Positions 6,251-63,961 of a stretch of DNA of 64,000 nt are shown here, one piece after another; within the stretch, counting starts at the first letter, position 1, and each line of letters begins with the position of its first letter. Below the pieces are notes generated by a model. That model searched no databases. It saw only the letters and a list, made by a program, of their open reading frames with translations, and was not told where the DNA came from. The stretch is from a virus, in the IMG/VR virus record IMGVR_UViG_3300022745_000020, positions 83,903 to 147,902 of that record. One strand, given 5' to 3'. The translations under genes and the position numbers were made by a program.

Positions 6251-9200
6251 TTATGCTCTGCGTCTCATGGACACAGGAAGATCGGGGATATCATATCGAG
6301 CACTCATTGGCTTGGAGTTACTCCTCACAGCTGGAGTATCATTAGTCAATTCAGTCTCGGGTTTAGCTGAGGGGTCCTTAGCCTGCATAGACTCCACAGC
6401 AGCAGGGATATTGGGTTTATTAGCGATGATGGCCAGTAGTTGCTCCATGCGCTTTTGTACAACCAGACTCTCGCTCAAGATCCCTTCGGTCTTAAACATC
6501 AGGTTGGCACCTGGGCTGTTATCGACTGCGGGTTCGATGCGAGTGGGCTGGAGATTGCTCATGTCTAAGCCCAGACTAGCGCGAGCAAAGTCTGACTTTA
6601 TAGCCGCTCTGGAGGGCTTGGGAGTAGCTGTGGCTACCTCTGTATCCCCCGAGGGGGTTTGAGGCCTTGTAGAGGCCTTTAAAGCCCTCCAAGAGCTATC
6701 CTGAGATGCATTTTGTACAGCAGAGACTCGCGTGCGCTCGACAGGGACAGTATCACTGCCTAAATCGATCCCAAACGCAGCTGCAGTCTTCCTGAGCTTA
6801 GCATCGATGTAGTCCACCAGAGCCTGTACAGATCTGGGAGATCCATTGTCGTAGAAGATACTTTCATTAGCAGCAGCTGCCTTAGGCAGGATCTGAGCAG
6901 CTGGAGTCTGAGGGGCATTTTGGTACACCTCATACAGGCGCTTGGCTCCAGCCTTACCCAGGAAGTGAGCCATGTAGGCTTTGGTCACATCCTGAGTCTG
7001 ACCGTCGCTGTTGGCCTTGATGAGGTGTGCTCCCATGAGAGCGTTAGCACGAGCATCGTAGACTGAAGTGCTCTCGGGCATATAGCCGTATCTAGAGCCA
7101 TACTTAGAAACAGTTTCCTCCCAAGTGGCTTGAGTGAAACCGTTGAGTCCGGCAGCACTGCCGAGCTTAGCTCTGGCGTCTGGGTTAAAGCCAGACTCCA
7201 TAGCTGCAGTAGCCAGTGCCACCTTAGGGTCCACACCCACCGCCTGAGCAGCTGCGGTGATGGTGTCTTTGACCGATTGCTTATCTCGGCTCTTGGGCTC
7301 AGGGACTTTAGTCAGAGCACCTATGGTGGGTTTTTCTGGCAGAGCACCGAATTGAGCCTTGTTAGGTGCATCGGTAGACGCCACTGCGGGCTTACTCTCC
7401 GCATCAGGCAGAGGAGCAAACTTGGGCTGATTGCTCGCTTGCAGTGGGGCTTTACCTGGCTGAGATACAGGCCCCACGATACCCGTTTGCAGTGTAGGCT
7501 TCTTAGATTGAGTCCCCAGTGGATCGATCTTCTCCAGAGGACCAGAGGCTTTAGCATCGGCATTGATGCCAGATAGTTTCACATTGGGCTGGATGCTGGC
7601 AGCAAGGATCTGGCGAGCAAGCTCTGGATTGCGAGAGCCATCGGTGGCACCCTTTTGAGTGCCTAAGCCCCCACCTCCTCGACCGATGCCTTCTTCTATG
7701 GCTTTCATCGCCAGCTCAGGCTGCTGCTTATAGCGATCGATATCGAGCTGCACGCCCACTGGCTCGATGTGCCAGGGCTCACCTCCCACAGGTCGAATCA
7801 GTCCATACTTGCGCAGCAGCCCCAGATCATCCATCTCATCGAGGGCTTTAGAGTCAGCATCCAGCGCTAAGCCGTAGCCATGTAGACTCTGACCAGGAAC
7901 AGCAGCTTTAGTGCCAAACTTCTGCCGCATAGCGACTTGGTCTTCATAGCTGCGATAGGCATCGGTGACGGTGATGCGCTTACCAGTGAGTTGGTAGTAT
8001 TCCTCCACAGCGCCGAAGAAGCTCTTCATGAGTGCTGGGTTGACCTGATCCATCTTGAGCTTGCCATCCTGGCGGATAAGGCTATAGCCATTGCGACCAT
8101 CCAAGAGTGGCCCATCGGCAAACTTCAAGCCACTGGGATTGACCTTGGAGTCAATTACACTCACACTGCTGGTGGCAGTGGGGGGCTTTTCCACATCCAA
8201 GGAGAAGTTGGTCTTAGGCAGCTCAGGTGCTGCCTTGGTCAACGTATCTTGCTGCTGCTTTTGAGCATCGGCTACGAGCTGTATACCACGCTGCTCACGA
8301 GTGGGCTTGGTGGTATCTGCAGCAGCCTTATTAGGCTTAGACTTGATCTCATCGAGCTTATACTTGAGTCGGATGTCTTGGATGACAGCCTTCACATCTG
8401 TCGATGAGCAGGCCTTATACGCTGCGTCATGCAGCGGTAATACCCCGTAGCCGTAAGGGCCATCCATGTAGGAGGCTAAGCTCATATACGACTGCAGATC
8501 TGCACCCTCCAGAGAGCTGATCGAATCGATATCGAATTTCCCAGTGACTTGCTTGACAGCCAGAGCGTGTGTCAAAAACACAGGCTTGAACCTGGCACGA
8601 TACCACATGGTGAAGCGATTGACATCTTCTTTGCTCTGACTGTCGAGATCGAAGATGGACATGATGTCCTTGAGATTGACCTTACTCTCAATGATATCAG
8701 GGCCTTGATTGGTAAACTGCACCCGATCTTGTAAGATGCGCTCGAACTTCACCACCTTGACATAATTGACTTCATCATCGGGATGAAAACCATACTGCAC
8801 CAGGCGCAGCTTGTCGATATCGCCGAGCTTGTCTTTGTAGTGACGATAGACTTTCCATGCCCCATAGCCCACAGCAGCAGCCACAGCCGCACCGATGACC
8901 ACAGGAGAGCCCAGGAAGGCCCCTAGCGCAGTACCCAGTGTAGCCAGACCAGTGCCAGCTGCAGCCATCAAACCGCCTCCAGTGGCTGCTGCAGTAGCAG
9001 CACCACCAGCCGCAGCTGTGGTGGCACTGGCAGCGCCTACAGCAGTGGCAGTACCTGCTGCTGCAGTCGCACCAGTCGTCGCTGCTGCAGCAGTAGCAGC
9101 AGCTCCCCCTAGACCCAGAGCACCGGCTCCCCAGCCCATGAGTTTACCGATACTGCCTTTGCCCAGAGACAGCAGATTCTTGATACCATCGATGAGATCG

Positions 9201-12200
9201 CTGAGCTTACCCAGCAATCCACCAGAGTCTTTATCTGTAGAGTCTTTCTTCTGGAGTTTACTCTGTACAGACTCTTTGGCTTTCTCGATCTCCTTAGCAT
9301 CTTCTTGATGCTGCGCAGCCGATTGCTTTTGATTGCGCTTGAAGATAGACTTCAGACTCTTCAATGGAGAGACTCCTGAGGACTTAGAGCCATCTGTAGA
9401 TTTATCAGCAGTGGGCGTCTCCCCACTCGATCCATCTGTAGCAGGCAGTCGATCATCCAAGATATCACGGATCTCCTCGAGTACGGACAGAGACTTTTTA
9501 GAGGTGATGGCATCGCTGCCACCGAAGAGTCCGCCGATACCCCCAGTGAGTAGATTACCCACTGCGCCCAGTCCCTTCATGCCGGCTGTGGCGATTTTCT
9601 TAGTGGCCTCCCAGCCCAGCTTCATGCCCTTGTATGCGAGTTTGCCAGCACCCATGACCAGGGACTTAGCTGCATTAAAGACCTTACCCAGGCGAGTGCG
9701 CACGGGCCGGCCCTTGTTATCGTACAGCCCTTTTTGGAGCATCTCGAGCGTGACGACTTCATTACCATCCCCATCGAGCACAGGTCCATCGATATCGGAG
9801 TAGGAGCGAATAGCCTTGCCCGTACTCTTAGATGTATAATAGCCCTTGACCATGAGGTTGGCCAGCAGTACAGGATCTTTTACACCTGGGCTGTATAGAT
9901 CCACAGGCCTGCCTAGGAAGTTGTATCCTGCTTTGAGTGCACTGCCTATGAACGATCGAGCAGACTTGAGGATGGTCATCTCCAGATTCCACATGGCAGA
10001 CACGCCACCTGTGGCTAGCCAGCCCAGGCCCTTGACGATCTTCTTGGGGACGTAAGCCAAACCCCTGCCCACCAGTGAGGTGAGCCTGACCATGATCCCA
10101 CGAGGATCTGGACACACCAGTTGATCGAGCTCCTCATCCTTGATGAGGATATTCCCACTCTCATCGGTGATGGCTTGATTGATGTCTTTATGGGACTTCA
10201 GCACATCCTTGCTGTGTAGACGACGATACTTACCCGCATCGATTTGTACTCCATACAGGCGAGGTTTATTCTCCCCCTTGACATACACATCACGAGTTTG
10301 TTCTTTAAACTTACCCGGGATACTTGCAGCGGCTTTGGCTACATCCCACATCCCACTGGCGATCTTCCCACTGAGCTTGGCACTACCCATGAAGAGTCTA
10401 CCTGTACCACTGATCAGTCCGGATACCCCACCGATGGCTTTATCCTTAGCCCAAATGAGAGAGCGGTTAGTCATACTCAGCTTGGGTTTACCACCCAAGC
10501 CAGCGATAGCCACGTGCTCGACTCGATCGAGGATCTTATTCAAAGTCTCATTGATTCGATCGAGTTGCTGAGGGACACCTTCTCCAGGCAGAGCAGTCTG
10601 AGCCGATACTGTAGCACCTGCCTTATCTGAAGCGGAGAATTTAGATTTCAATGTATCCCAGCTGGGGATATTGACTTGCCTGATGCGCTCAGCTGCAGCG
10701 GTGAAAGCCGCAGTGGCTTTCTCCACCATGGTCTCTACAGACTGAGGATCGATCTTGAGCTTGTCTTTGAGTGTGGACAGTGATGGCCGATCGATGTGCT
10801 CAGGGGGTGGCTCGACTGTCTTAGCCTCGATGTCTTGCGCTTGAGAGTTGTCATACTTAGATGTATACCCCGAGCGCTGACCCCGATCCATGATGACACT
10901 AAGCCTATCGTCAGGGGCTCTGACCACAGGCAATAGGGATCTGCGAGATCCATCTGGATTGAGCAGCTGCACACCGCCGTCTCCGATGGGCATGATGGCT
11001 TCTTTGCCATCTTCCCCAGCTACTGCTTCTTGCACACCTTTCTTGCCAAAGAGCTTGAACTTGGTGGCCTTACTCAAGATTTTGTTGATGAACACGCCAC
11101 CTTTGGCGAACTTCTTAGTGGCTGGATCGTCTTGCTGGCCTAAGCCCGATGCAGGCTGCTCACTGCCCTTGTCGACATTGGGCACAGATTGCTCTTGCTT
11201 GATGTCTTCGGCTTGCGATGCGGCAGTCGGAGGCGTTTTGGTTTGACTGTCCTCATCCTTTTTCTCACCAGCCTCTTTGATCTCTTTCCAAGATTCAAGA
11301 AGTCCTTCCTTGATTTTGATCATGCGCTGCATGACTGCGACTCGGATCTTCTCTGGCAGTGCAGCGAGCTCCTTGAGTAAGAGCTCATAGTCGATCTCGC
11401 CGTCGACCGTGCAGCGCTCGAGCATAGACTCAGCTTGAGCATTGACATTCTTGATCTTAGAAGTTACTGTCTCAGTGGCTTGTTTGCCAGCATCGACTAA
11501 TGCACTCAGATGGACATTGCCAGAGACTTCCTTGCTGATGGCTTTGGAGACCTCGTCGAGTTTGGCTTTAGCAGCCTGACCTGATTTACTCTTAGAGGCA
11601 TCTTCCATAGCAGCTTTGAGGATATCGGAGGGCTTACCTTCCGAGCCCTCATCCAGGGTCTTTTCCAGACCGGTAGCTCCCATGGACTTGGCCATCTTGC
11701 GAGCTTGAGCAAAAGCTCCCTTCTTGGCTTTCTTGCCACGAGCTCTGAGATTTTCTTTAGTCTGCTCGTATTTGGCTTTGGCCTTCTGGACGGTCTCAGA
11801 CTCACTCATGGCTTTCTTGAGCTCTTCGGCCATGGTGGGCCGCTTGGGCTCAGCCTTCTGAGCCGATGGAGTCATCTTCAGATAGTGCTCGAGCATGGCT
11901 TTGGTGTCGACTCGTCGACTCAATCCCCCCTCGTAGCCATCTTCTTGCGAAGATACGATCCCATGCTCTCTGAGCAAATCGCTGTGACCTTGATCTGCCA
12001 GTCGTTGGATATTGGTGGTGGTATCCCCCAAGTCACTGGTTAGGTTTCTGTGGATATTTCGCAGATTCATCTGCTTTTGTATAGGGACTTTTTCGAAGAA
12101 CTCTCGCATGACGCGAGCGGCTTCTTCTGCACCAGCCTTGATCTCATAGCGGTTAACGTCACCCAAGGTCTGCTCATCGGCATACTCTTTGCTCGACGAT

Positions 12201-13843
12201 GCCATGCGGTGCTTGAGAGCTTCTTTGGCTTCATCGGAGAGTTTGTAGCCATCTTTTTCTAAGTTGGTGATGATCTCATTTAACTTAGAGTGTAAGGCAT
12301 TGGCTTTGTTTTGATCGTACACTCTAGACAGTACGCGCTTACTCATCTCCTTCTTAGCGATAAACTCAGAGCGCTGCATATCAAACACAGTCAGACCTGT
12401 GGAGGTGTCGCCTGTGCGAGTGATCTGGAGCTCTTGCAAGATACGGGCTAAGTATCCTGGCATGATTTCGGTGAGAGACTTCTCCGTGCGAGAGACTTCA
12501 CCATCGGGGCCCGATGAGAACGCAGAGCCTGGAGTGGCACTGCTGTCAGCGATTTCGTGAGCGCTGTCTTGAGAAGGCATCATCTCTGCTAAGAAACGCT
12601 TGAGATGATTAGTGATACCACCTTCGTAGTTGCCGATGTTATTGTCTCGAAATCTTGAGGCTAGGGCCCCTGCGTTTTGAACCAGGTTAGCTCCTTTTAG
12701 ACCCAAGCGCACGAAGCTCTTATTCGTAGCGAGTTTATTGTCCACCAGGGACTTAGCAGCTTGCCCAGCCAGGCCTTGGGAGACGGTAGTGCCCAGCTGA
12801 TCACCAGCCATGCCCGCTACCGTCATGCCCGCACTGCTCATCATCTCTTTGGTGTCTTGGAGCTGAGTGGCCATATCGGCCAAAGAGCTCATCGCATCCT
12901 TGGCTTTACCTTTGAGCTTATTGCCCACTTCAGCGACTGCTCTAGATAGGTACTGACCGCTGTGGCCGAATAGGCCATTGCCGATCAAGCTGGCCATGCG
13001 GCGCTTATTATACTCCAGCAAGAATTCACTGGTTTGAAACTTGACGTAGTCAGGCAAGCCCGTGTTCTTTTGGATAGCAGGCAGCACCTGTGAGTGCAGA
13101 TCGAATGTAGCCTGAGCGATCTTGACGATGTCTTGGATACCGAAGAGTTGTCGGTAGGAGACTTCCAAAGACTTCTTTTGAAACTCCAGATTGATCGTGC
13201 GATTGTACTGATCGAGTCTGGCCATGGAAGCTGCTGCATCACTGAGCACACCCATCGTGTCTCGGTGTTTGCGCATATCCAGGCCCTGAGCTACCGCGTC
13301 TTGAGTGCTCTGGCGATCGTGATTGGCCTGCTCTTGTTGCAGCTGGGCTTGGAAGATGCCCGTGAGTGTGCTGCCTAGAAACTCTTCTCTTTGATTGTCT
13401 TGGTTACCAGAAGCAGCTACTCGATCCTCATATTCCTCGTCTTTTCTCCACTGACCGAGTCGCTCTTGGATGCTCTTGGGGATATACCAAGCATCCTCGG
13501 GGATGGTCTTGGACAGAGCCTTTTTGATGAGCTTGACCTCGGGCTTGATCTCTCGCAGAGTCTGCTCATACGTCGAGGAGATACGCCCAGCCAGATTGCT
13601 GGTGAAATCGATGGTCTGACCATATCCAGGAGGCAGTATCTCCTTCATGGTCTCTTTGATGAAAGCCCCGTCACGAGGCCCAGTCTTTATCCCCTCGATG
13701 ACACCTTCTTTGAAGTCGGTGACGGGAGAGCGATCTTTCTTAGGGGCATCGAAATCGAAATCCAATTCCCCCATATCCAGTTCATCATCGAAATCAAACC
13801 CGTCGTTGATTTTCTCTTTCTTGATCTTATTTGGCTTGGTCAT
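6251..13843 (-). CDS. Giant tail protein with M15 peptidase and lytic transglycosylase domains (2530 aa)
   Basis: The ATG at 13843 follows AAGGAG by six bases. N-terminal 900 residues: charged and helical, with coiled-coil and Lys-rich stretches. About 940-960: an EAIMPIG segment typical of tape-measure proteins. About 1565-1670: an Ala/Gly-rich segment that could cross a membrane. About 1920-2026: an M15/VanY-like D,D-carboxypeptidase domain with SLHGYGLALDAD (H1988, D1995) and HIEP (H2025). About 2200-2312: a soluble lytic transglycosylase domain with AAMESGFNP (catalytic Glu 2216) and an AGLNGFTQATW segment. It matches the position and architecture of phiKZ gp181, the tail lysozyme. Likely role: carried in the tail and digesting peptidoglycan glycan strands and peptides during DNA entry. 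Confidence 0.88.
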   Translation of the reverse strand: MTKPNKIKKEKINDGFDFDDELDMGELDFDFDAPKKDRSPVTDFKEGVIEGIKTGPRDGAFIKETMKEILPPGYGQTIDFTSNLAGRISSTYEQTLREIKPEVKLIKKALSKTIPEDAWYIPKSIQERLGQWRKDEEYEDRVAASGNQDNQREEFLGSTLTGIFQAQLQQEQANHDRQSTQDAVAQGLDMRKHRDTMGVLSDAAASMARLDQYNRTINLEFQKKSLEVSYRQLFGIQDIVKIAQATFDLHSQVLPAIQKNTGLPDYVKFQTSEFLLEYNKRRMASLIGNGLFGHSGQYLSRAVAEVGNKLKGKAKDAMSSLADMATQLQDTKEMMSSAGMTVAGMAGDQLGTTVSQGLAGQAAKSLVDNKLATNKSFVRLGLKGANLVQNAGALASRFRDNNIGNYEGGITNHLKRFLAEMMPSQDSAHEIADSSATPGSAFSSGPDGEVSRTEKSLTEIMPGYLARILQELQITRTGDTSTGLTVFDMQRSEFIAKKEMSKRVLSRVYDQNKANALHSKLNEIITNLEKDGYKLSDEAKEALKHRMASSSKEYADEQTLGDVNRYEIKAGAEEAARVMREFFEKVPIQKQMNLRNIHRNLTSDLGDTTTNIQRLADQGHSDLLREHGIVSSQEDGYEGGLSRRVDTKAMLEHYLKMTPSAQKAEPKRPTMAEELKKAMSESETVQKAKAKYEQTKENLRARGKKAKKGAFAQARKMAKSMGATGLEKTLDEGSEGKPSDILKAAMEDASKSKSGQAAKAKLDEVSKAISKEVSGNVHLSALVDAGKQATETVTSKIKNVNAQAESMLERCTVDGEIDYELLLKELAALPEKIRVAVMQRMIKIKEGLLESWKEIKEAGEKKDEDSQTKTPPTAASQAEDIKQEQSVPNVDKGSEQPASGLGQQDDPATKKFAKGGVFINKILSKATKFKLFGKKGVQEAVAGEDGKEAIMPIGDGGVQLLNPDGSRRSLLPVVRAPDDRLSVIMDRGQRSGYTSKYDNSQAQDIEAKTVEPPPEHIDRPSLSTLKDKLKIDPQSVETMVEKATAAFTAAAERIRQVNIPSWDTLKSKFSASDKAGATVSAQTALPGEGVPQQLDRINETLNKILDRVEHVAIAGLGGKPKLSMTNRSLIWAKDKAIGGVSGLISGTGRLFMGSAKLSGKIASGMWDVAKAAASIPGKFKEQTRDVYVKGENKPRLYGVQIDAGKYRRLHSKDVLKSHKDINQAITDESGNILIKDEELDQLVCPDPRGIMVRLTSLVGRGLAYVPKKIVKGLGWLATGGVSAMWNLEMTILKSARSFIGSALKAGYNFLGRPVDLYSPGVKDPVLLANLMVKGYYTSKSTGKAIRSYSDIDGPVLDGDGNEVVTLEMLQKGLYDNKGRPVRTRLGKVFNAAKSLVMGAGKLAYKGMKLGWEATKKIATAGMKGLGAVGNLLTGGIGGLFGGSDAITSKKSLSVLEEIRDILDDRLPATDGSSGETPTADKSTDGSKSSGVSPLKSLKSIFKRNQKQSAAQHQEDAKEIEKAKESVQSKLQKKDSTDKDSGGLLGKLSDLIDGIKNLLSLGKGSIGKLMGWGAGALGLGGAAATAAAATTGATAAAGTATAVGAASATTAAAGGAATAAATGGGLMAAAGTGLATLGTALGAFLGSPVVIGAAVAAAVGYGAWKVYRHYKDKLGDIDKLRLVQYGFHPDDEVNYVKVVKFERILQDRVQFTNQGPDIIESKVNLKDIMSIFDLDSQSKEDVNRFTMWYRARFKPVFLTHALAVKQVTGKFDIDSISSLEGADLQSYMSLASYMDGPYGYGVLPLHDAAYKACSSTDVKAVIQDIRLKYKLDEIKSKPNKAAADTTKPTREQRGIQLVADAQKQQQDTLTKAAPELPKTNFSLDVEKPPTATSSVSVIDSKVNPSGLKFADGPLLDGRNGYSLIRQDGKLKMDQVNPALMKSFFGAVEEYYQLTGKRITVTDAYRSYEDQVAMRQKFGTKAAVPGQSLHGYGLALDADSKALDEMDDLGLLRKYGLIRPVGGEPWHIEPVGVQLDIDRYKQQPELAMKAIEEGIGRGGGGLGTQKGATDGSRNPELARQILAASIQPNVKLSGINADAKASGPLEKIDPLGTQSKKPTLQTGIVGPVSQPGKAPLQASNQPKFAPLPDAESKPAVASTDAPNKAQFGALPEKPTIGALTKVPEPKSRDKQSVKDTITAAAQAVGVDPKVALATAAMESGFNPDARAKLGSAAGLNGFTQATWEETVSKYGSRYGYMPESTSVYDARANALMGAHLIKANSDGQTQDVTKAYMAHFLGKAGAKRLYEVYQNAPQTPAAQILPKAAAANESIFYDNGSPRSVQALVDYIDAKLRKTAAAFGIDLGSDTVPVERTRVSAVQNASQDSSWRALKASTRPQTPSGDTEVATATPKPSRAAIKSDFARASLGLDMSNLQPTRIEPAVDNSPGANLMFKTEGILSESLVVQKRMEQLLAIIANKPNIPAAVESMQAKDPSAKPETELTNDTPAVRSNSKPMSARYDIPDLPVSMRRRA

Positions 13844-14098
13844 CACTTGCTCCTTACGTTTGGAGGGGTGTATGCGTATGGTCTATATAGGTAGAGTATA
13901 CCCATACACCTTAGAGTGTGCTCTGCGCTCCCATAGGGGGCTCTATAAAGCTCACTCGATGGACATGCATTGAATAATGACAGATACGGGCCATGAGGTG
14001 TGAGCTCTGAGCGAGAGATGAGCCTGTATTTTTGTCTGTGGTTTTACTTTGAATCATTTTTTCTTCTACTTCCCCCTTTGCAGCAGGAGAGTCTATTC

Positions 14099-52890: not shown

Positions 52891-53277
52891 ATGAGTCTGG
52901 CCATCAATTCTGAATACACATTCACCATGAGATCGCCTGCGATCTTGGGTGCATCGTACGACGCCACACTGCTGGCAGTCCTGGGCTGGGATACCGCTCG
53001 CGCACTGCAAAGTGATCTGGCATTTACCCATCAGGCTGTATTGCCCGATCTGCCAGCAGGCACTGCAATGAACGTGGCTGATCTGGAATTTTATCGCATC
53101 AAGACTGCGGTAGATACCCGAGTCATCTGTAAGGAGTGGCTTGCACGAGAGCCTGAGTTGATCGAGCGAAAGACCATCTCCATCATGATCCCCAATGCCT
53201 CTGCGGGATCTATCCCTTTGCTCCGAGAGCTACTCACTGCCAACGGCTTTGGTACGGTATATATCACCTCAGTGTGA
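52891..53277 (+). CDS. Hypothetical protein (128 aa)
   Basis: Starts MSLAINSEYTFTMRSPAILG, 50 bases after the previous stop, with AAAGGTGACATC upstream. It does not share the cassette motif as clearly. Alpha/beta look, with a C-terminal GSIPLLRELLTANGFGTVYI. Ends at the strong palindromic terminator. No known family. Confidence 0.7.
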   Translation: MSLAINSEYTFTMRSPAILGASYDATLLAVLGWDTARALQSDLAFTHQAVLPDLPAGTAMNVADLEFYRIKTAVDTRVICKEWLAREPELIERKTISIMIPNASAGSIPLLRELLTANGFGTVYITSV

Positions 53278-53371: not shown

Positions 53372-53493
53372 GGCCAAACATTCGGGCAAGGGTGGTTGGT
53401 TGCTGAAGGCCCTTAGGGGATGGTCGGCGTTTTCATGCTTTTCTTCCTTTCGCTATTAATACCACGGGGACTTCGGTCCTCGTGGTCTTTTTT
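53372..53493 (+). ncRNA. Candidate small non-coding RNA
   Basis: A segment of about 120 bases lies between two terminators and before the DNA polymerase gene. It ends in a classical terminator (ACCACGGGGAC, loop TTCG, GTCCTCGTGGT, TTTTTT at 53461-53493). Internal AAGGGT (about 53389) can pair with GCCCTT (about 53409). A 29-codon frame from ATG at 53372 has no ribosome-binding site. An AT-rich region with TTACTTAATAGTATGG at its start could be its promoter. No known RNA family recognised. Confidence 0.5.
53461..53493 (+). terminator. Rho-independent terminator with UUCG loop
   Basis: 11-base stem (one G-T pair), stable TTCG tetraloop and six T. It ends the candidate small RNA rather than a protein gene. 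Confidence 0.9.
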
Positions 53494-53570
53494 ATGCTCT
53501 CTATCTTTAAAAATAGAGTCGATCCATGAGGTGTTTCGATATAAGCGATGTGTGTGAAGGAAGATTAAAC

Positions 53571-55721
53571 ATGACAAAATTCGTAGATCCATTCGTGCTG
53601 CCTGTGGATCAGTATCGCAGGTGCATCAACCCGCTGGGTGACTACAAGGCAGATGCGGTGAGGTACCTGATGCTCATCAGCGGGGATGATGAGGCCTCTT
53701 GCACTCAGGCTGTGGAGCGCATGCTCGCTAAGGGTGGTGAGTTTGAGTTCAAAGATCCGAAGGTGGAGTACTTTGAGCGCGGTGAGAGTAGGGATCGTGA
53801 GCGCAAGGTGTCGAGCGCACTGAGGTACATCGGTGAGTCGATTAAAAGCGAAGACATCATCGCCCCTACGTTTACTACCTACATGCCTGCTAAGAGAAAG
53901 CGCTCTATCTTATCCATCGACGTGGATGAGAAGATCCGACTGCGCAGTGTGGCTAAGAAGGCTATGTTCAAAGCCCGTGCTCAGGGCGATACCTTCCATG
54001 CGAACTTCTACAAGAACGAACAAACGCAGCGCAAGCGCAGTAACAACTCACTGAGCGGGGCTGCTAACTCCACAGGTACTCCTTTAGCGAATAAGACGTC
54101 TCACAGCTCACTGACGAGCACGTGCCGCATCACCAGCGGCTACGGCAATGCTAACAACGAGAAGCTCCTCAGTGGCAATCGCCACTACTATCGCCACGAT
54201 CTGGTGATCAATAACATCATCTCGATCATCGGGCACACTGACTACGTGGCATTGAGTGCTGTGGTGGATAAGTACGCTCTACGCGTCCCTACTGTGGATG
54301 AAGTGATGAGCTGTATCACCTACTCTACAGATCTGTACTGGAAGTCGAGTCTGTGGTTAGAGCAAATCCGCACACTGGTGCAGAAGTTAAATGGACTGCA
54401 GCGTGCTGCATTTGTCTACACGGGTGATCTACACCAGGTGAGGATACTCAATCCGGATTTCATGAAGGTGTTTCTCGCTCAGCTGTGTAAGCGCTGTGAT
54501 TGCGATGATCTACCGGGTGCTCTCGATATCATCAAGTCCGCTATGGATAGTCACATCAACTTGGCTCATCAAATCTGCTCTGACTGCGTCAAGGGGCGTG
54601 GTAAGGAGTATGACAAGATGAGTCATACAGAGCTATCCACCATCGCAGCCACACTGAACAACATCGCTCAGGTGGTGATGAAGTACGCTGACTTTATCAA
54701 AGTCATCATGGTGAGTCCAAACATGCCCACCAATGTGGGGCAGTTTCCTCACTCCACTCGCAGGTCTGCAGTCACTTCCGATACCGACTCGACGATCTTT
54801 ACGGTGCAAGACTGGATCTCTTGGTATACAGGGGGTGAGTACTTTACGCCTGAGGGGATTGCTATCCAAGCAGGCATGACATTTCTGGCCAGCAGCGCAA
54901 TCACCCACTTGCTGGCGATGATGAGTGCGAACATCGGAGTGGAAAGAGATAAGCTCTTTCGTATTCAGATGAAGAGTGAATTCCGATTTGATGTGTTTGT
55001 GCCCACAGGGGTGGCGAAAACATACTTTGCATCGATTGCCTGTCAAGAAGGCGCTGTGTTCGAGCACAATGAACTCGAGATCAAGGGGGTGATGCTCAAA
55101 AACAGCAACAACCCAGCCGATATCAATGAGCAAACCAGTGACATGATCGAGCGCATCATGGAGACAGTCCGAGCGGGTAAGAAGATCCGTCTGCTGGACT
55201 ATATCCGCGAGGTCGCCGCTGTCGAGCAGCGCATCATGGCCTCAGTGCTCAAGGGTGAGACTCACTATCTGAAGTCGCTGAACATCAATTCAGATGAAGC
55301 TTATAGTGCCGATCCTGAGGATTCGCCGTTCCAAAACCATTTGTTCTGGGAACAGACATTCCAGGGCAGCTATGGGGTGATCAAACCGCCTCCATATAAG
55401 ACTTCGAAGATCTCACTGACACTGAAGAACGCGCAGTCGATCAAGAAGTGGCTCGATGAGATGGAGGACAAAGCTCTGGCTGAGAGACTGCGAGCATACC
55501 TCCTCAAGAAGAACAAGACATCATACTTGACCTTCTATGCTCCTGAGGAAGTGTTAGATAAGGCAGGAGTGCCCAAGGAAATTGCCTGTGTGGTCGATGT
55601 CAGAAAGATCGCCTCTCAGTTGTGCAAATCCTTCTATCTGATCCTAGAGACTCTGGGGGTGTATATCCACCAGAAGGATCTCAGGCGTCTGGCCAGTGAC
55701 TTGTTACAAGAATCCACTTGA
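53571..55721 (+). CDS. Split family B DNA polymerase, C-terminal part (716 aa)
   Basis: The ATG at 53571 (MTKFVDPFVLPVDQYRRCIN) follows AAGGAAG; an ATG at 53526 has no site. Motif B is visible at 155-164 (KRSNNSLSGA, matching K-x3-N-S-x-Y-G although the Tyr is Ser here). Motif C is SDTDST (D404, D406). The thumb-proximal K-x-Y block reads VAKTYFAS (about 483), with ELEIKGVMLKNSNNP after it. Neither the 3'-5' exonuclease motifs nor motif A (D-x2-S-L-Y-P) is in this chain, so they must be on another gene. It copies phage DNA together with that partner. Confidence 0.82.
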   Translation: MTKFVDPFVLPVDQYRRCINPLGDYKADAVRYLMLISGDDEASCTQAVERMLAKGGEFEFKDPKVEYFERGESRDRERKVSSALRYIGESIKSEDIIAPTFTTYMPAKRKRSILSIDVDEKIRLRSVAKKAMFKARAQGDTFHANFYKNEQTQRKRSNNSLSGAANSTGTPLANKTSHSSLTSTCRITSGYGNANNEKLLSGNRHYYRHDLVINNIISIIGHTDYVALSAVVDKYALRVPTVDEVMSCITYSTDLYWKSSLWLEQIRTLVQKLNGLQRAAFVYTGDLHQVRILNPDFMKVFLAQLCKRCDCDDLPGALDIIKSAMDSHINLAHQICSDCVKGRGKEYDKMSHTELSTIAATLNNIAQVVMKYADFIKVIMVSPNMPTNVGQFPHSTRRSAVTSDTDSTIFTVQDWISWYTGGEYFTPEGIAIQAGMTFLASSAITHLLAMMSANIGVERDKLFRIQMKSEFRFDVFVPTGVAKTYFASIACQEGAVFEHNELEIKGVMLKNSNNPADINEQTSDMIERIMETVRAGKKIRLLDYIREVAAVEQRIMASVLKGETHYLKSLNINSDEAYSADPEDSPFQNHLFWEQTFQGSYGVIKPPPYKTSKISLTLKNAQSIKKWLDEMEDKALAERLRAYLLKKNKTSYLTFYAPEEVLDKAGVPKEIACVVDVRKIASQLCKSFYLILETLGVYIHQKDLRRLASDLLQEST

Positions 55722-57530: not shown

Positions 57531-57646
57531 GCAAGATCACAACTGTCCTTTAAACGGGATGGTCGAGCTTACTTGCTCTGACGTCAGAAAAAGTGTTTCC
57601 TCTAAGTGTTTGTTTTTCCCCTGTTCTACAGCGAAAGGTCATGACC

Positions 57647-59332
57647 ATGAATACCCCTTCGAACACCGCTCGTTCGTTCTCCACGACTCTGCCGGGCGCC
57701 ATCCTCAGCCTGGGTACTGTCTCGGGTTCCACCCAAGTCGCAGTCGATGCCATCACCAAGTGCATCAATGCCATCAAGCCCCAGATCCCGATGATGGATC
57801 TGGCTGTGGTCGGGCTCGACCGCGCTCAGACTCAACTATACTTCAGCAGCGTGGCCATCGTCGACAAGATCTCGCGCGCCGCGGTGGTCATCTTGCTGGC
57901 GGCTTCGAACAACCCGCTGCCCTGGGTCAACGAGACGGTGCCCAATGGCGTCATCTCCGTGCCGGTGACTCCGGCGGACTCCATCGATAGCCAGTTCTCC
58001 ATCACCGTCAGTCAGACCCTGGGCAACATGTTCGGTAAGGGTGAGGCTCTCACTCTGAACTACCTGGTGGCTCCGCGGGTGCTGCAAATCACCGAGGAGA
58101 CGATGGCTGCATACGTGGTGCAAGCCGCCACCATCATCTATCGCTGCGCCAACCAAGTCGAAGATCTGGATCTGTCGCGCTATGGTGCAGCATCCTTCCT
58201 GGCTGTGAACGCCAGCACCGCAGTGCGTGAAGAGATCGGACTGGATGGCCTGCCGCGCTTTTTCACCCACACCATCACGGTCTCGGGTGGGCAGCAAGCC
58301 GCCGGTGGCAAGAACCGCATCAACGACACCGCTCAGCGCACCATCGTCGAGGTCAACGCCTTTGTCGATGCAGCTTGGGCACCGGGCCCTCGCGGTGGTG
58401 TGCAAGGTGCGCCGATTGCCCACTATATCCCTCGCGCTATCTTGCGCCAAGGTCGCAACAACGCAGGCAACTCGATCGAGTCGCATCTGCTGGGACTGGC
58501 CGCAGCCACTTGCCTGGGTAACCAACAAGCTTGGGCTGCTCAGTATCTGGGACGTCACCCCCTGCTCAACGTCGGCGCGCTGCTGAGCGATCCGTCTATC
58601 GCGGGTAAGACCCTGGATACGACGGCGGCAGACGTCACCATCGAAGACATGTACAAGCTCATCGGTGAGCTGTTCCAGCCGACGATGGTGTACTCGATGG
58701 CGATCCCGCGCTACTCCATCACGGCCATCGGGCAAGAGGTCTTCGTTGCTGCATCTCGCGGTAACGCTGATGCGAATGCGGAAATCATCGCCTCAGCCAA
58801 CCGTCTGACGGGAGGCCACTTCGGTACATTCTTCCGTGGCACTCGCACGGTGGTGGTCAATGGCAGTCCTGATAACGGCAATGACGATGTCATGGCCGTG
58901 GGCACGTGGCTCGACAACGAGCAGCGCCTGAACAGCACTGGCAAGATCGACAACGTGGTGGGCTTCATGTGCCGAGCTGGTGATCAAGGCGCAGGTGCTT
59001 TGAGCGCCTACACCGAGACCAAGATGACCTCCAGTGGTCCGGCTCGCGTACGTCTGGCCAAGACGCAAGCGCTGCTTCATCAACTCACGGGCGGCTACCC
59101 CATCGAGATCCATGACGTCGAGCGTCTGGTGACCTTCACTCGTGAGTTCATCGACGCGCTGAGCCAAGCTGTGCAGGCTTGCACCATCAAGCTCAACGTC
59201 AATATCACCAACCCGATGACCAATGTCCAGATGCGTCCGTCGTTCACTCAGGCATTTGACCTGTCGGTCGTGGGCGTGAGTGGTGGTATGCAGCAGCGCG
59301 CTGCGAGCTACCAGGGCGGCGTGAGCTGGTAA
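57647..59332 (+). CDS. Probable chimallin, phage nuclear shell protein (561 aa)
   Basis: A highly expressed early protein: an early promoter, strong GC-biased codons and its own double-hairpin terminator. It begins MNTPSNTARSFSTTLPGAIL (ATG 57647, eight bases after AAAGG; an ATG at 57641 is close). The N-terminal 160 residues are an alpha/beta domain (LAVVGLDRAQTQLYFSSVAI), followed by a second domain with many beta strands (SMAIPRYSITAIGQEVFVAA). Chimallins are about 600 residues, and the next gene is a non-virion RNA polymerase subunit, as phiKZ gp54 precedes gp55. No catalytic motif. The alternative, a major capsid protein, is less likely because that would be late and would carry a cleaved propeptide. 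Confidence 0.68.
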   Translation: MNTPSNTARSFSTTLPGAILSLGTVSGSTQVAVDAITKCINAIKPQIPMMDLAVVGLDRAQTQLYFSSVAIVDKISRAAVVILLAASNNPLPWVNETVPNGVISVPVTPADSIDSQFSITVSQTLGNMFGKGEALTLNYLVAPRVLQITEETMAAYVVQAATIIYRCANQVEDLDLSRYGAASFLAVNASTAVREEIGLDGLPRFFTHTITVSGGQQAAGGKNRINDTAQRTIVEVNAFVDAAWAPGPRGGVQGAPIAHYIPRAILRQGRNNAGNSIESHLLGLAAATCLGNQQAWAAQYLGRHPLLNVGALLSDPSIAGKTLDTTAADVTIEDMYKLIGELFQPTMVYSMAIPRYSITAIGQEVFVAASRGNADANAEIIASANRLTGGHFGTFFRGTRTVVVNGSPDNGNDDVMAVGTWLDNEQRLNSTGKIDNVVGFMCRAGDQGAGALSAYTETKMTSSGPARVRLAKTQALLHQLTGGYPIEIHDVERLVTFTREFIDALSQAVQACTIKLNVNITNPMTNVQMRPSFTQAFDLSVVGVSGGMQQRAASYQGGVSW

Positions 59333-59491: not shown

Positions 59492-59526
59492 CTGCAGAAA
59501 GTTTCAAACATATATTATCTATTTGC
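59492..59526 (+). promoter_or_regulatory. Early-type promoter of non-virion RNA polymerase gene
   Basis: Core TATATTATC at 59511-59519 with upstream ACTGCAGAAAGTTTC. Fifty-seven bases before the ATG at 59568. Supports early expression of the second RNA polymerase. Confidence 0.78.
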
Positions 59527-59567
59527 AGTGCTGTGTAAGTGTCATCAACAAAAGGAGTACCCTTACT

Positions 59568-61082
59568 ATGGGAATCGGCATCGTACAGATCAATCAAGAG
59601 CGTGACATCTTCAACCACATCAAAGAACCTGTCATCTTCCTCAATGACATCCCAACGACCAATGAATCCGATCGAGAAGCTGGAGCTAAACTCACCAGCA
59701 TCACCTTTGCTCACGATGATAGCTTTGATGTAGTGCCCACTTGTGGGTGCGGGAAGTACAAAGGTGTGGTCTATATGGACGTGGTGTGTGAGCAATGTAA
59801 CACCAAAGTCACGGATCTGCTCAGTGAGGACCTCACGCCCAAGGTGTGGATCCGCACTCCCTTGAAGGTCAGTGGACTGATTAATCCACACGCACTGACT
59901 CTGATGCAGACGACCTTTAAGATCAAGACATTCAAGATCGTACAGTGGCTCATCGATACCACGTATAATCCGAGGAACGTAGCGGATTTGAACTTGAGGG
60001 CTTTCGAAGAGATGGGGGTCTCACGGGGATACAACTTCTTCTTCGAGAACTTCGAGTTGTGTATCCAAGCCATCCGTACGTTTTTATTTCGCTATCGGGG
60101 CGTGTTGCGCAAGCGTGAGCGCAATCCCAACTATATCCTGGAGAAAGCCGACCAGACCATCGATGATCTGGCTGAGCTGATGCTCCAAGATGCCAATACC
60201 GTACGCACTCAATATATCGCAGTGCCCAATAAGTCCATGATGATCATCGAGAGTACGGCCACAGGCACATACATCGACCCCATCGTCGTGGCAGCCAAAG
60301 ATGCCATCAACATGGTCACAGGCATAGATACTTCACTGTTTGTGAATCAATCTCAGCGCCTGCGCGAGAACCGAGTGGCTAAGATACTGCTGAAGTTGAG
60401 TGAATACTATTCAAGTTACATCTCGACGGCTTTGGTGAAAAAGGGCGGCGCGTTTCGCAGACAAGTCTATGGCTTTCGCACGCACATGTCCATGCGAGCG
60501 GTGATCACCGCACTGACTAAGCCGCATAAGTACAACGAGTTGCATCTGCCGTGGGGGCGCAGTCTGGTGACGTTCTATCTGCACATCTCCAACGAGTTGT
60601 TTCGCAGAGGTTATCAGGAAAACGAGATCCATGAGCGCATCAGCCGTGCTCACTTTCACTACGATCCGCTGATTCGGGAGATCTTCGATACCATCTTGGC
60701 TGACTACGGCGGTGAGATCCCTTTCTACTGGAATCGAAACCCCTCACTGCATCGAGGCTCGTGTGAGCTGATGATGGTCACTCAGATCAAATCCGATATC
60801 GATGACTACACCATCAGCCATCCAGCGACCAACGTGGCTGCATTCAATGCCGACTATGACGGCGACCAGATGACAGGTGTAGTGCTCGATAAGTACCAAG
60901 CCAGGCTGGCTGCTGGGCTCAGACCGCATCACTCTGTGGCCGATCTCAATAAGGTCAATAAGATCGGCAATCAGATCGCACTGCCTCGACCGTTCCTGTA
61001 CACGGTCTTTAAGTGGTGGCGCGATGCCGATCGCAATCGCACACCAGAGCAAGAGAAGTTCTTGCAAGCTCTGTACGATTGA
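59568..61082 (+). CDS. Non-virion RNA polymerase beta' subunit, N-terminal catalytic part (504 aa)
   Basis: Zinc-ribbon cysteines C59, C61, C74 and C77 match the beta' N-terminal finger. RNPSLHRGS (about 390) matches the beta' R-x-P-x-L-H-R segment, and NADYDGDQM (N427, D429, D431, D433) the catalytic magnesium loop, closer to bacterial beta' than the virion-type GADHDGD at 14099-15721. The protein ends soon after, so the C-terminal half of beta' must be elsewhere. ATG at 59568 has AAAGGAGTACCC upstream. Early promoter and position next to the probable chimallin gene match phiKZ gp55, a subunit of the polymerase that reads later genes. Confidence 0.85.
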   Translation: MGIGIVQINQERDIFNHIKEPVIFLNDIPTTNESDREAGAKLTSITFAHDDSFDVVPTCGCGKYKGVVYMDVVCEQCNTKVTDLLSEDLTPKVWIRTPLKVSGLINPHALTLMQTTFKIKTFKIVQWLIDTTYNPRNVADLNLRAFEEMGVSRGYNFFFENFELCIQAIRTFLFRYRGVLRKRERNPNYILEKADQTIDDLAELMLQDANTVRTQYIAVPNKSMMIIESTATGTYIDPIVVAAKDAINMVTGIDTSLFVNQSQRLRENRVAKILLKLSEYYSSYISTALVKKGGAFRRQVYGFRTHMSMRAVITALTKPHKYNELHLPWGRSLVTFYLHISNELFRRGYQENEIHERISRAHFHYDPLIREIFDTILADYGGEIPFYWNRNPSLHRGSCELMMVTQIKSDIDDYTISHPATNVAAFNADYDGDQMTGVVLDKYQARLAAGLRPHHSVADLNKVNKIGNQIALPRPFLYTVFKWWRDADRNRTPEQEKFLQALYD

Positions 61083-62262: not shown

Positions 62263-62796
62263 ATGGCCGATACCATCCGCGATATCAATCGCCGTAATTT
62301 GGATAAGCGCAACAGTGGGTTGCTCGAAGTCATCAAAGATAATAAGTATGTCAATGTGCGCACACTCACAGAGGCCAACTTCATCAAGTTCTTCTTACCT
62401 TACTTCAGTGGTAAGGTGGCAGTCACCAAAGAAGTGATCGATGCATGGGGCACCATCGCAGGAGAACTCGATCGCCCAGTCGATCTGATCGATGCAGCTG
62501 GGCAGATCATCGCTCGTGTACCTCCAGTAGTGAGTGTCGATGCGTATGTACCCATCGTCACTCGTCGTGTGGGTATCCACCATGAACTCGAGCTTTCCAC
62601 CAAAGGCTCTATGCCCATGGGGGAGAATTACATGTACGCTGCTCTGACTCAGCGCCTAAAGCAGATGTATAAGCAGGGTGATAAAAGCCAGCAAGAAAAG
62701 CAATGGGCAACATTTCTAAAGCGCTACGGCATCGATGTAGATACTGCGGCAGCACCGACTGGCAGCGATCCCGATGACCTCGAATATGAGTACTGA
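62263..62796 (+). CDS. Hypothetical protein (177 aa)
   Basis: ATG at 62263 with GAGGGTAGAC upstream; an in-frame ATG at 62251 lacks a site. Starts MADTIRDINRRNLDKRNSGL. Helical with a beta-rich middle (VVSVDAYVPIVTRRVGIHHE) and an acidic tail (GSDPDDLEYEY). Overlaps the start of the nuclease gene, so translation is coupled. No family recognised. Confidence 0.72.
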   Translation: MADTIRDINRRNLDKRNSGLLEVIKDNKYVNVRTLTEANFIKFFLPYFSGKVAVTKEVIDAWGTIAGELDRPVDLIDAAGQIIARVPPVVSVDAYVPIVTRRVGIHHELELSTKGSMPMGENYMYAALTQRLKQMYKQGDKSQQEKQWATFLKRYGIDVDTAAAPTGSDPDDLEYEY

Positions 62797-63961
62797 GTAT
62801 AGCCGACAGCCCAAGCATGATGGGTATATCCACGTGGCTTGTGTATCTGATATCCACCTGGAGAGTAAGCGCACACCCACGGACTTGATCATTCGAAACT
62901 TAAACACCTATTTGACCAACGATCGGGTGTTTAAAGACTTGGATGTGCTGTTCCTAGCAGGAGACGTGTTTGACAACAACATCGCCCTATCTAGACCTCA
63001 CTGCACATCGGTGATGTCATGGATGCAGCATCTGATCTTGTTGAGCATCAAGCACAAGGTGTGTGTGCGGGTGTTGGAGGGCACTCCCTCTCACGATCGC
63101 GCTCAGAGTAGGCACTTCATCACCAAGCGAGATGATATTTATCATGCCGTAGGTGTGAGGGCCGATATCGAGTACTTCGATACGCTCAGTGTAGAGGCTT
63201 TGGTGTTCACCAATCGCACTTTGCAAGTGCTCTATGTCCCCGATGAGTGGGGACCTGCTCAGTCTACGCTGGAGCAAGTCGATGAACTCATGCACTCCAG
63301 AGGTCTGAATCGATTCGATTTGGCTGTCATGCATGGGACTTTTGATTTTCAAAACCCCATCATTGCGCATCACGCGGGCACTCACAAGTCCGAGGAGTAC
63401 AGCAAGCGCGCTAAGTTGATATTCATTGGCCATGAGCACACTGCACGCACTCAGGGCAATATCATCGCTCAGGGCAGTTTCGATCGCCTAGAGCATGGTC
63501 AGGAGCAACCCAAGGGCTATATCCGAGTCAAGATCTTAGAAGACGACTCTTATATCGCTCAGAGGGTGGTGAATAAAACAGCCGCTGTCTTTAAGACGAT
63601 CATCTGTAAGAGCGATGATGTTGAGGCCATGTACGAGGATGTCCACGCCACAGCCAGGTCTTTGGAAGACGGCTCTCATGTGTGCATAGAGACATTCAAG
63701 TCCAGTGCGATGGCTCAGTCTCTGACTTATTTTGAGCGCAACTATCCCCAACATGTATGGAAGCTGTCTCTAAAGGACAGTAAAGCCTCTAAGGAGATAC
63801 TGGCTGACGCCACCCTCACTCAGATACCTTCTTCCATCGTTCTCAATGAGCATACCTTACTGGGGCTGTGCGAGCAGCAAGCAAAATTCAAGTGTGTGGC
63901 CGATGGTGATATCGCTGGGGTGTTAGATATCATCAAACAGGTCATGCAGACATCAAAATAA
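62786..63961 (+). CDS. SbcD/Mre11-type nuclease, recombination endonuclease subunit (391 aa)
   Basis: Calcineurin-like phosphoesterase motifs are in the right order. SDIHLE (D22, H24) is motif I, LAGDVFDNN (D60) motif II, EGTPSHDR (98-105) stands for the usual GNHD motif III with a Thr/Pro insertion, VMHGTFDF is the next His motif, and GHEHT closes the set. Length suits an SbcD, T4 gp47 or Mre11 protein with a capping domain. It would process DNA ends with an SbcC-type ATPase partner. Two in-frame starts exist (62774 and 62786), neither with a strong site; the second is taken. The next gene begins 28 bases later and may be that partner. Confidence 0.85.
   Translation: MSTEYSRQPKHDGYIHVACVSDIHLESKRTPTDLIIRNLNTYLTNDRVFKDLDVLFLAGDVFDNNIALSRPHCTSVMSWMQHLILLSIKHKVCVRVLEGTPSHDRAQSRHFITKRDDIYHAVGVRADIEYFDTLSVEALVFTNRTLQVLYVPDEWGPAQSTLEQVDELMHSRGLNRFDLAVMHGTFDFQNPIIAHHAGTHKSEEYSKRAKLIFIGHEHTARTQGNIIAQGSFDRLEHGQEQPKGYIRVKILEDDSYIAQRVVNKTAAVFKTIICKSDDVEAMYEDVHATARSLEDGSHVCIETFKSSAMAQSLTYFERNYPQHVWKLSLKDSKASKEILADATLTQIPSSIVLNEHTLLGLCEQQAKFKCVADGDIAGVLDIIKQVMQTSK

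Follow-up and report, generated by a model that had tools for sequence, protein, structure and literature searches.

The window analysed here comprises 64,000 nucleotides and is the last 64 kb of an IMG/VR viral record of 147,902 bp (IMGVR_UViG_3300022745_000020). One of its genes raises the question of how a DNA polymerase can work when the polypeptide that carries motifs B and C has neither motif A nor a proofreading domain. An earlier note on this DNA had proposed that the enzyme must be made of two or more polypeptides, with the catalytic aspartates on different chains. We hold with high confidence that the product of this gene is the polymerase chain of a family B replicase with two obligate chains, that the phage is a nucleus-forming relative of phiKZ, and that motif A is supplied in trans.

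The 716-aa product matches the divDNApol family PF20286 over positions 3–704 of 705 (E 9.5e-232; 771.5 bits versus a cut-off of 25.7) and phrog_2927 (E 4.8e-236). Of 50,697 phage records, 284 contain homologues, mostly phiKZ-related, every one at less than 60% identity, and no member from a named phage exceeds 43.5%. No nucleotide-level relatives of the window were found among the phages and plasmids searched. Direct reading of the sequence shows no Shine-Dalgarno-like stretch upstream of position 53526, where a longer ORF could start. We prefer the ATG at 53571 because GAAGGAAG precedes it by 7 nt and homologues begin at about that point. A terminator-like hairpin with a T run was seen by eye at window positions 53461–53493, between the polymerase gene and the gene for an SH3-fold protein (SH3DP).

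SH3DP belongs to a protein family associated with polymerases of this kind and is a candidate third subunit. The order of the SH3DP, chimallin-like, RNA polymerase subunit and SbcD-like neighbours (Table 1) matches that of PhiPA3 and SPN3US. From these neighbours, the source phage is most likely nucleus-forming and phiKZ-related, i.e., of the Chimalliviridae type. The longest ORF in the window, of 2531 aa, is found at 6251–13846 on the minus strand.

Table 1. Features of the polymerase-chain region of the window, and group I introns in the exonuclease-chain gene of related loci.
Feature	Sequence	Position	Strand	Evidence or remark
SH3-fold protein (SH3DP), candidate third subunit	window	52891..53277	+	PF20287, E 2.2e-12; upstream of polymerase gene
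Shine-Dalgarno-like GAAGGAAG	window	53556..53563	+	7 nt before ATG 53571; sequence read directly
Polymerase chain, divergent family B DNA polymerase, 716 aa	window	53571..55721	+	PF20286, phrog_2927, AF2 model
Motif B, K155-R-S-N-N-S-L-S-G-A164	window	54033..54062	+	Ser162 replaces family B Tyr
Motif C, D404-T-D-S407	window	54780..54791	+	D404, D406 invariant
K-x-Y block, K483-T-Y485	window	55017..55025	+	K483, Y485 invariant in 52/52
Chimallin-like phage nucleus shell protein	window	57593..59332	+	PF25677, E 6.3e-9, over cut-off; phrog_4795, E 1.6e-26
Multisubunit RNA polymerase subunit	window	59523..61082	+	phrog_2987, E 1.6e-117
SbcD-like nuclease subunit, conserved downstream neighbour	window	62774..63961	+	phrog_100, E 2.5e-27
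Group I intron	L144	11465-11758		RF00028
Group I intron	L153	11357-11682		RF00028
Group I intron	L159 (PhiPA3)	11800-12105		RF00028
Group I intron	L106	11428-11849		RF00028
Group I intron, first of two	L135	12552-12835		RF00028
Group I intron, second of two	L135	14323-14624		RF00028

Conservation was judged in an alignment of 52 sequences, i.e., the window chain and 51 non-redundant ORFs of at least 690 aa. The family B Lys, Asn and Gly of motif B are present as K155, N159 and G163, all invariant. Position 162 is Ser in all 52 chains and Tyr in phages AR9 and S6, whose KLLANSFYGA and KILANSYYGA align with the window motif. The motif B Tyr of family B polymerases is the nascent-base-pair Tyr. 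D404 and D406 of motif C are the only invariant Asp residues in the alignment. DTDS is found in 80/80 polymerase-chain ORFs, taken as the best 80 of 192 loci, and none of these 80 has the motif A pattern D-x4-[YFW]-P. Pfam and phrog profile searches returned no exonuclease family match to the 716-aa chain.

The AF2 model of the chain (pLDDT 88.9) has a palm, fingers and thumb fold, and all 50 matches listed for it are family B polymerases. Model residues 86–716 superpose on RB69 gp43 residues 433–896 only (Z 11.8, rmsd 5.8, 375 aligned), a score to be read with caution, as a middling Z can arise by chance when the model is helical. Foldseek TM-scores are low, 0.18–0.26 by query length, and at the sequence level the match to RB69 is weak (probability 27% and E 7e-4 in hhalign). 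We take D411, Y416 and Y567 of RB69 as its known functional sites, D411 being the motif A Asp; D411 precedes the stretch that the model matches. In domain terms, the 716-aa product comprises the fingers, the thumb and most of the palm of a divergent DNA polymerase of family B. The earlier note had described a chain with motifs B, C and K-x-Y, with no motif A or exonuclease, and with Ser apparently in place of the motif B Tyr (NNSLSGA), and the description is borne out throughout.

The missing elements are found in relatives, on a second family, phrog_3011, which was reached via SPN3US gp44 and has members in 276 phage records. In the relatives examined in which both genes are present, this one other chain carries the exonuclease motifs as well as motif A. 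Its ExoI, ExoII and ExoIII residues (D170/E172, N263/D267 and Y400/D404) and, near the C-terminus, its motif A residues (D512-x4-Y517-P518, N525 and T530) are each present in 44/44 aligned sequences. The alignment contains 44 of the 45 non-redundant ORFs of at least 560 aa. L159, from PhiPA3, was omitted, as it has an intron at motif A, and the length limit excludes shorter, interrupted ORFs. A motif A pattern anywhere in the ORF is found in 70 of the best 80 of 106 exonuclease loci; this count includes first matches that are not motif A, such as DYQERYP, and the column-based 44/44 is sounder. Motif A is near-canonical in the exonuclease chains of AR9 (DLSSLYPSI) and Staphylococcus phage S6 (DLSALYPSI), and the polymerase chains of both are without it. 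The distribution supports the view that the catalytic aspartates of the palm come from two polypeptides.

It might be argued that the polymerase chain is active alone, using a carboxylate of its own such as D75, and that proofreading is left to the exonuclease chain as a separate factor. D75 is the best conserved Asp preceding motif B, being Asp in 48 of 52 polymerase chains, and could in principle serve as a ligand. Moreover, Iyer et al. 2021 (PMC7824862) call the polymerase chain a palm polymerase that has no exonuclease fused to it, and the exonuclease a standalone protein, encoded elsewhere, that may associate; the available sections of that paper do not name the missing motif A. However, D75 varies between chains, and it precedes residue 86, where the superposition on family B polymerases starts. 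Furthermore, a plain exonuclease would not need a motif A, yet the full motif is kept in every aligned exonuclease chain. We therefore regard a self-sufficient polymerase chain as very unlikely.

The polymerase and exonuclease chains are complementary in motifs and folds. An exonuclease-chain model, built from the relative L124 rather than from this phage, superposes through residues 18–462/489 on RB69 1–386/421 (Z 26.1). Its pLDDT is mostly above 80 to about residue 460 and falls below 50 in the motif A stretch (segments 462–489 and 504–535) of the chain folded alone, as would be expected of an orphan strand. Profile comparison of the exonuclease chain with RB69 plus T4 gave 98.9% across RB69 106–434. 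The T4-type profile phrog_262 is covered from 4 to 853 by the one chain of T4. In AR9, its positions 18–450 are on the exonuclease chain and 416–570 and 565–840 on the polymerase chain, and in the record studied here only 446–552 and 572–715 are found. PF00136 is likewise divided in AR9, with 46–91 on one chain and 103–211 on the other, both over the cut-off. Thus the two chains together tile gp43 of RB69 and T4, which differs in being one polypeptide and in having the motif B Tyr (NSLYG) where the window chain has Ser. A sequence search of the PDB found no solved structure for a member of either chain family and, for this reason, the replicase appears to be structurally unsolved.

Could the chains be joined after translation? 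In cyanobacterial DnaE, a split intein ligates two chains into one polypeptide, and split polymerases with inteins exist in phages, e.g., MIJ3, as reported in passages of PMC6892783. Against such ligation here, neither chain has a Pfam intein match, an HN[CST] junction is absent from the first 150 residues of all 52 polymerase chains, and the exonuclease chain extends only 71–148 residues beyond its motif A Asp. Ligation by a split intein is accordingly judged extremely improbable. Nor was a natural fusion of the two chains found among the best 80 of 192 polymerase loci and the best 80 of 106 exonuclease loci, in which the longest open frames are 799 and 775 codons, respectively.

Where, then, is the partner of the window chain? 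The earlier note held that nothing upstream could supply the missing parts. Indeed, searches with a single protein, with phrog_3011 and with an alignment profile found no exonuclease-chain homologue in the 147.9-kb record, so that a protein with exonuclease motifs and motif A, which the note suggested looking for, is found in relatives and not in the record itself. The exonuclease-chain profile search was positive in 10/10 other records and failed only in this one. In all 14 IMG/VR contigs that carry the pair, the exonuclease-chain gene lies 28–46 kb downstream on the opposite strand; two of these contigs were taken as circular and measured across the record ends. Among named phages, the distance is 28–52 kb downstream in 11/11, on the opposite strand in 10 of the 11, KTN4 being the exception. 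The record ends 8.3 kb after the polymerase gene. The partner is most probably absent because the fragment stops short of the distance at which it is found in relatives.

A further reading makes the window protein an inactive paralogue or scaffold, with another polymerase copying the genome. Inactivated family B polymerases are known, e.g., in archaea, according to parts of PMC2527604, and the earlier note had named a complete family B polymerase elsewhere in the genome as the finding that would make this protein a paralogue. Searches of this record, of four related contigs and of PhiPA3 and SPN3US yielded no complete polymerase of family B or A. All polymerase chains have an intact motif C. 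Also contrary to that reading, knock-down of phiKZ050 (++/++) is reported to impair infection in the available text of PMC12571901. Knock-down of phiKZ082 (+/+++) is reported there to do so too, and the pair of phenotypes favours the two-chain replicase. A role as an inactive protein is scarcely credible.

For the preferred two-chain replicase, the following arrangement is proposed. The second chain would be encoded some 30–50 kb further on, beyond the contig end and most likely on the opposite strand, and would bring the N-terminal and exonuclease domains together with the first palm strand bearing motif A. The two chains would associate, and the strand that bears motif A in the exonuclease chain would dock into the palm of the polymerase chain, bringing its Asp next to both aspartates of DTDS. 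Docking would create one two-metal active site with the proofreading domain attached, and the complex would polymerise and proofread. The data show directly how the motifs are divided, that this division is conserved, that the folds complement each other and that gene order is kept. From two-metal polymerase chemistry we infer that the chains bind each other, that the active site assembles in trans and that neither chain suffices alone. We also consider a more specific version, which we think has an even chance of being correct. In this version, motif A is disordered in the free chain and folds on docking, such that assembly switches on polymerisation and proofreading, perhaps only inside the phage nucleus; the Tyr-to-Ser change in motif B would predict altered base selectivity.

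The split itself has precedent. As stated in the accessible portions of PMC5694885 and PMC5105663, the phiKZ-related phages OBP, phiKZ and SPN3US have a split subunit DNA polymerase, which PMC5694885 credits to 2012 work on OBP. AR9 gp132 is described in PMC5312081, in the part available, as an exonuclease plus "a partial catalytic domain", and PMC7544198, likewise seen as an extract, places the PhiKZ cluster among divergent PolBs. Thus the two-chain split is already published for phiKZ-type and AR9-type phages, and the window gene is very probably a further example. SPN3US gp18 and gp44, phiKZ gp050 and gp082, and the OBP polymerase resemble the system proposed here in their families (PF20286/phrog_2927 and phrog_3011), gene order and division of motifs; the window chain differs in its identity to named members, given above, and in having no partner within the contig. 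AR9 (gp152 and gp132) likewise carries motif A on its exonuclease chain and the B and C motifs on its polymerase chain, with a break at a position similar to that in the phiKZ-related group. In contrast to the window chain, it keeps the motif B Tyr (NSFYG), and the polymerase chains are only about 18% identical. Aeromonas phage 44RR2.8t, with T4-like genes 43 and 43B ("split gene for core DNA polymerase"), also has motif A on one polypeptide (chain 1, 498 aa) and the B and C motifs on another (chain 2, 391 aa). However, its genes are adjacent, its break at RB69 512/521 is inside the fingers, versus about 421–450 here, and it is otherwise typically T4-like. The 44RR2.8t split is independent of the phiKZ/AR9-type split.

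In the open-access papers searched, no biochemical proof that both chains are needed and no demonstration of a trans active site was found. The sections of the related papers that were available do not state an explicit trans-assembled active site or a lineage-wide motif B Tyr-to-Ser change. Use of the large phiKZ and AR9 groups as models and for therapy is increasing. A trans active site, if true, would correct the view of a standalone exonuclease, and the conserved motif A makes a direct test feasible on the chain usually called the exonuclease. A two-chain replicase would also bear on the phenotype of the phiKZ082 knock-down, for which the authors of PMC12571901 suggest Pf4 suppression in the text available; this phenotype may instead reflect a replicase defect.

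The interrupted exonuclease-chain genes deserve comment. In 5/6 loci scanned, group I introns (RF00028) lie at the motif A codons or immediately ahead of them, with the motif A exon downstream (Table 1); the sixth locus, L130, gave no Rfam match. The gene is broken at the same place in L130, L133, L136 and L148. Where the exonuclease ORF is without the motif A pattern, the pattern is present in a downstream ORF in seven cases (L106, L130, L133, L135, L136, L144 and L153), and in L148 the downstream motif A exon is found by profile only. The L105 ORF is cut by the contig end. The ORFs of L161 (469 aa) and L170 (458 aa) stop before motif A, and a downstream search found no motif A exon for them. 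Finally, the annotation of Pseudomonas phage vB_PQ1 (L010) divides the exonuclease-chain region into five small ORFs, each labelled "DNA polymerase", and sequencing frameshifts are perhaps the cause.
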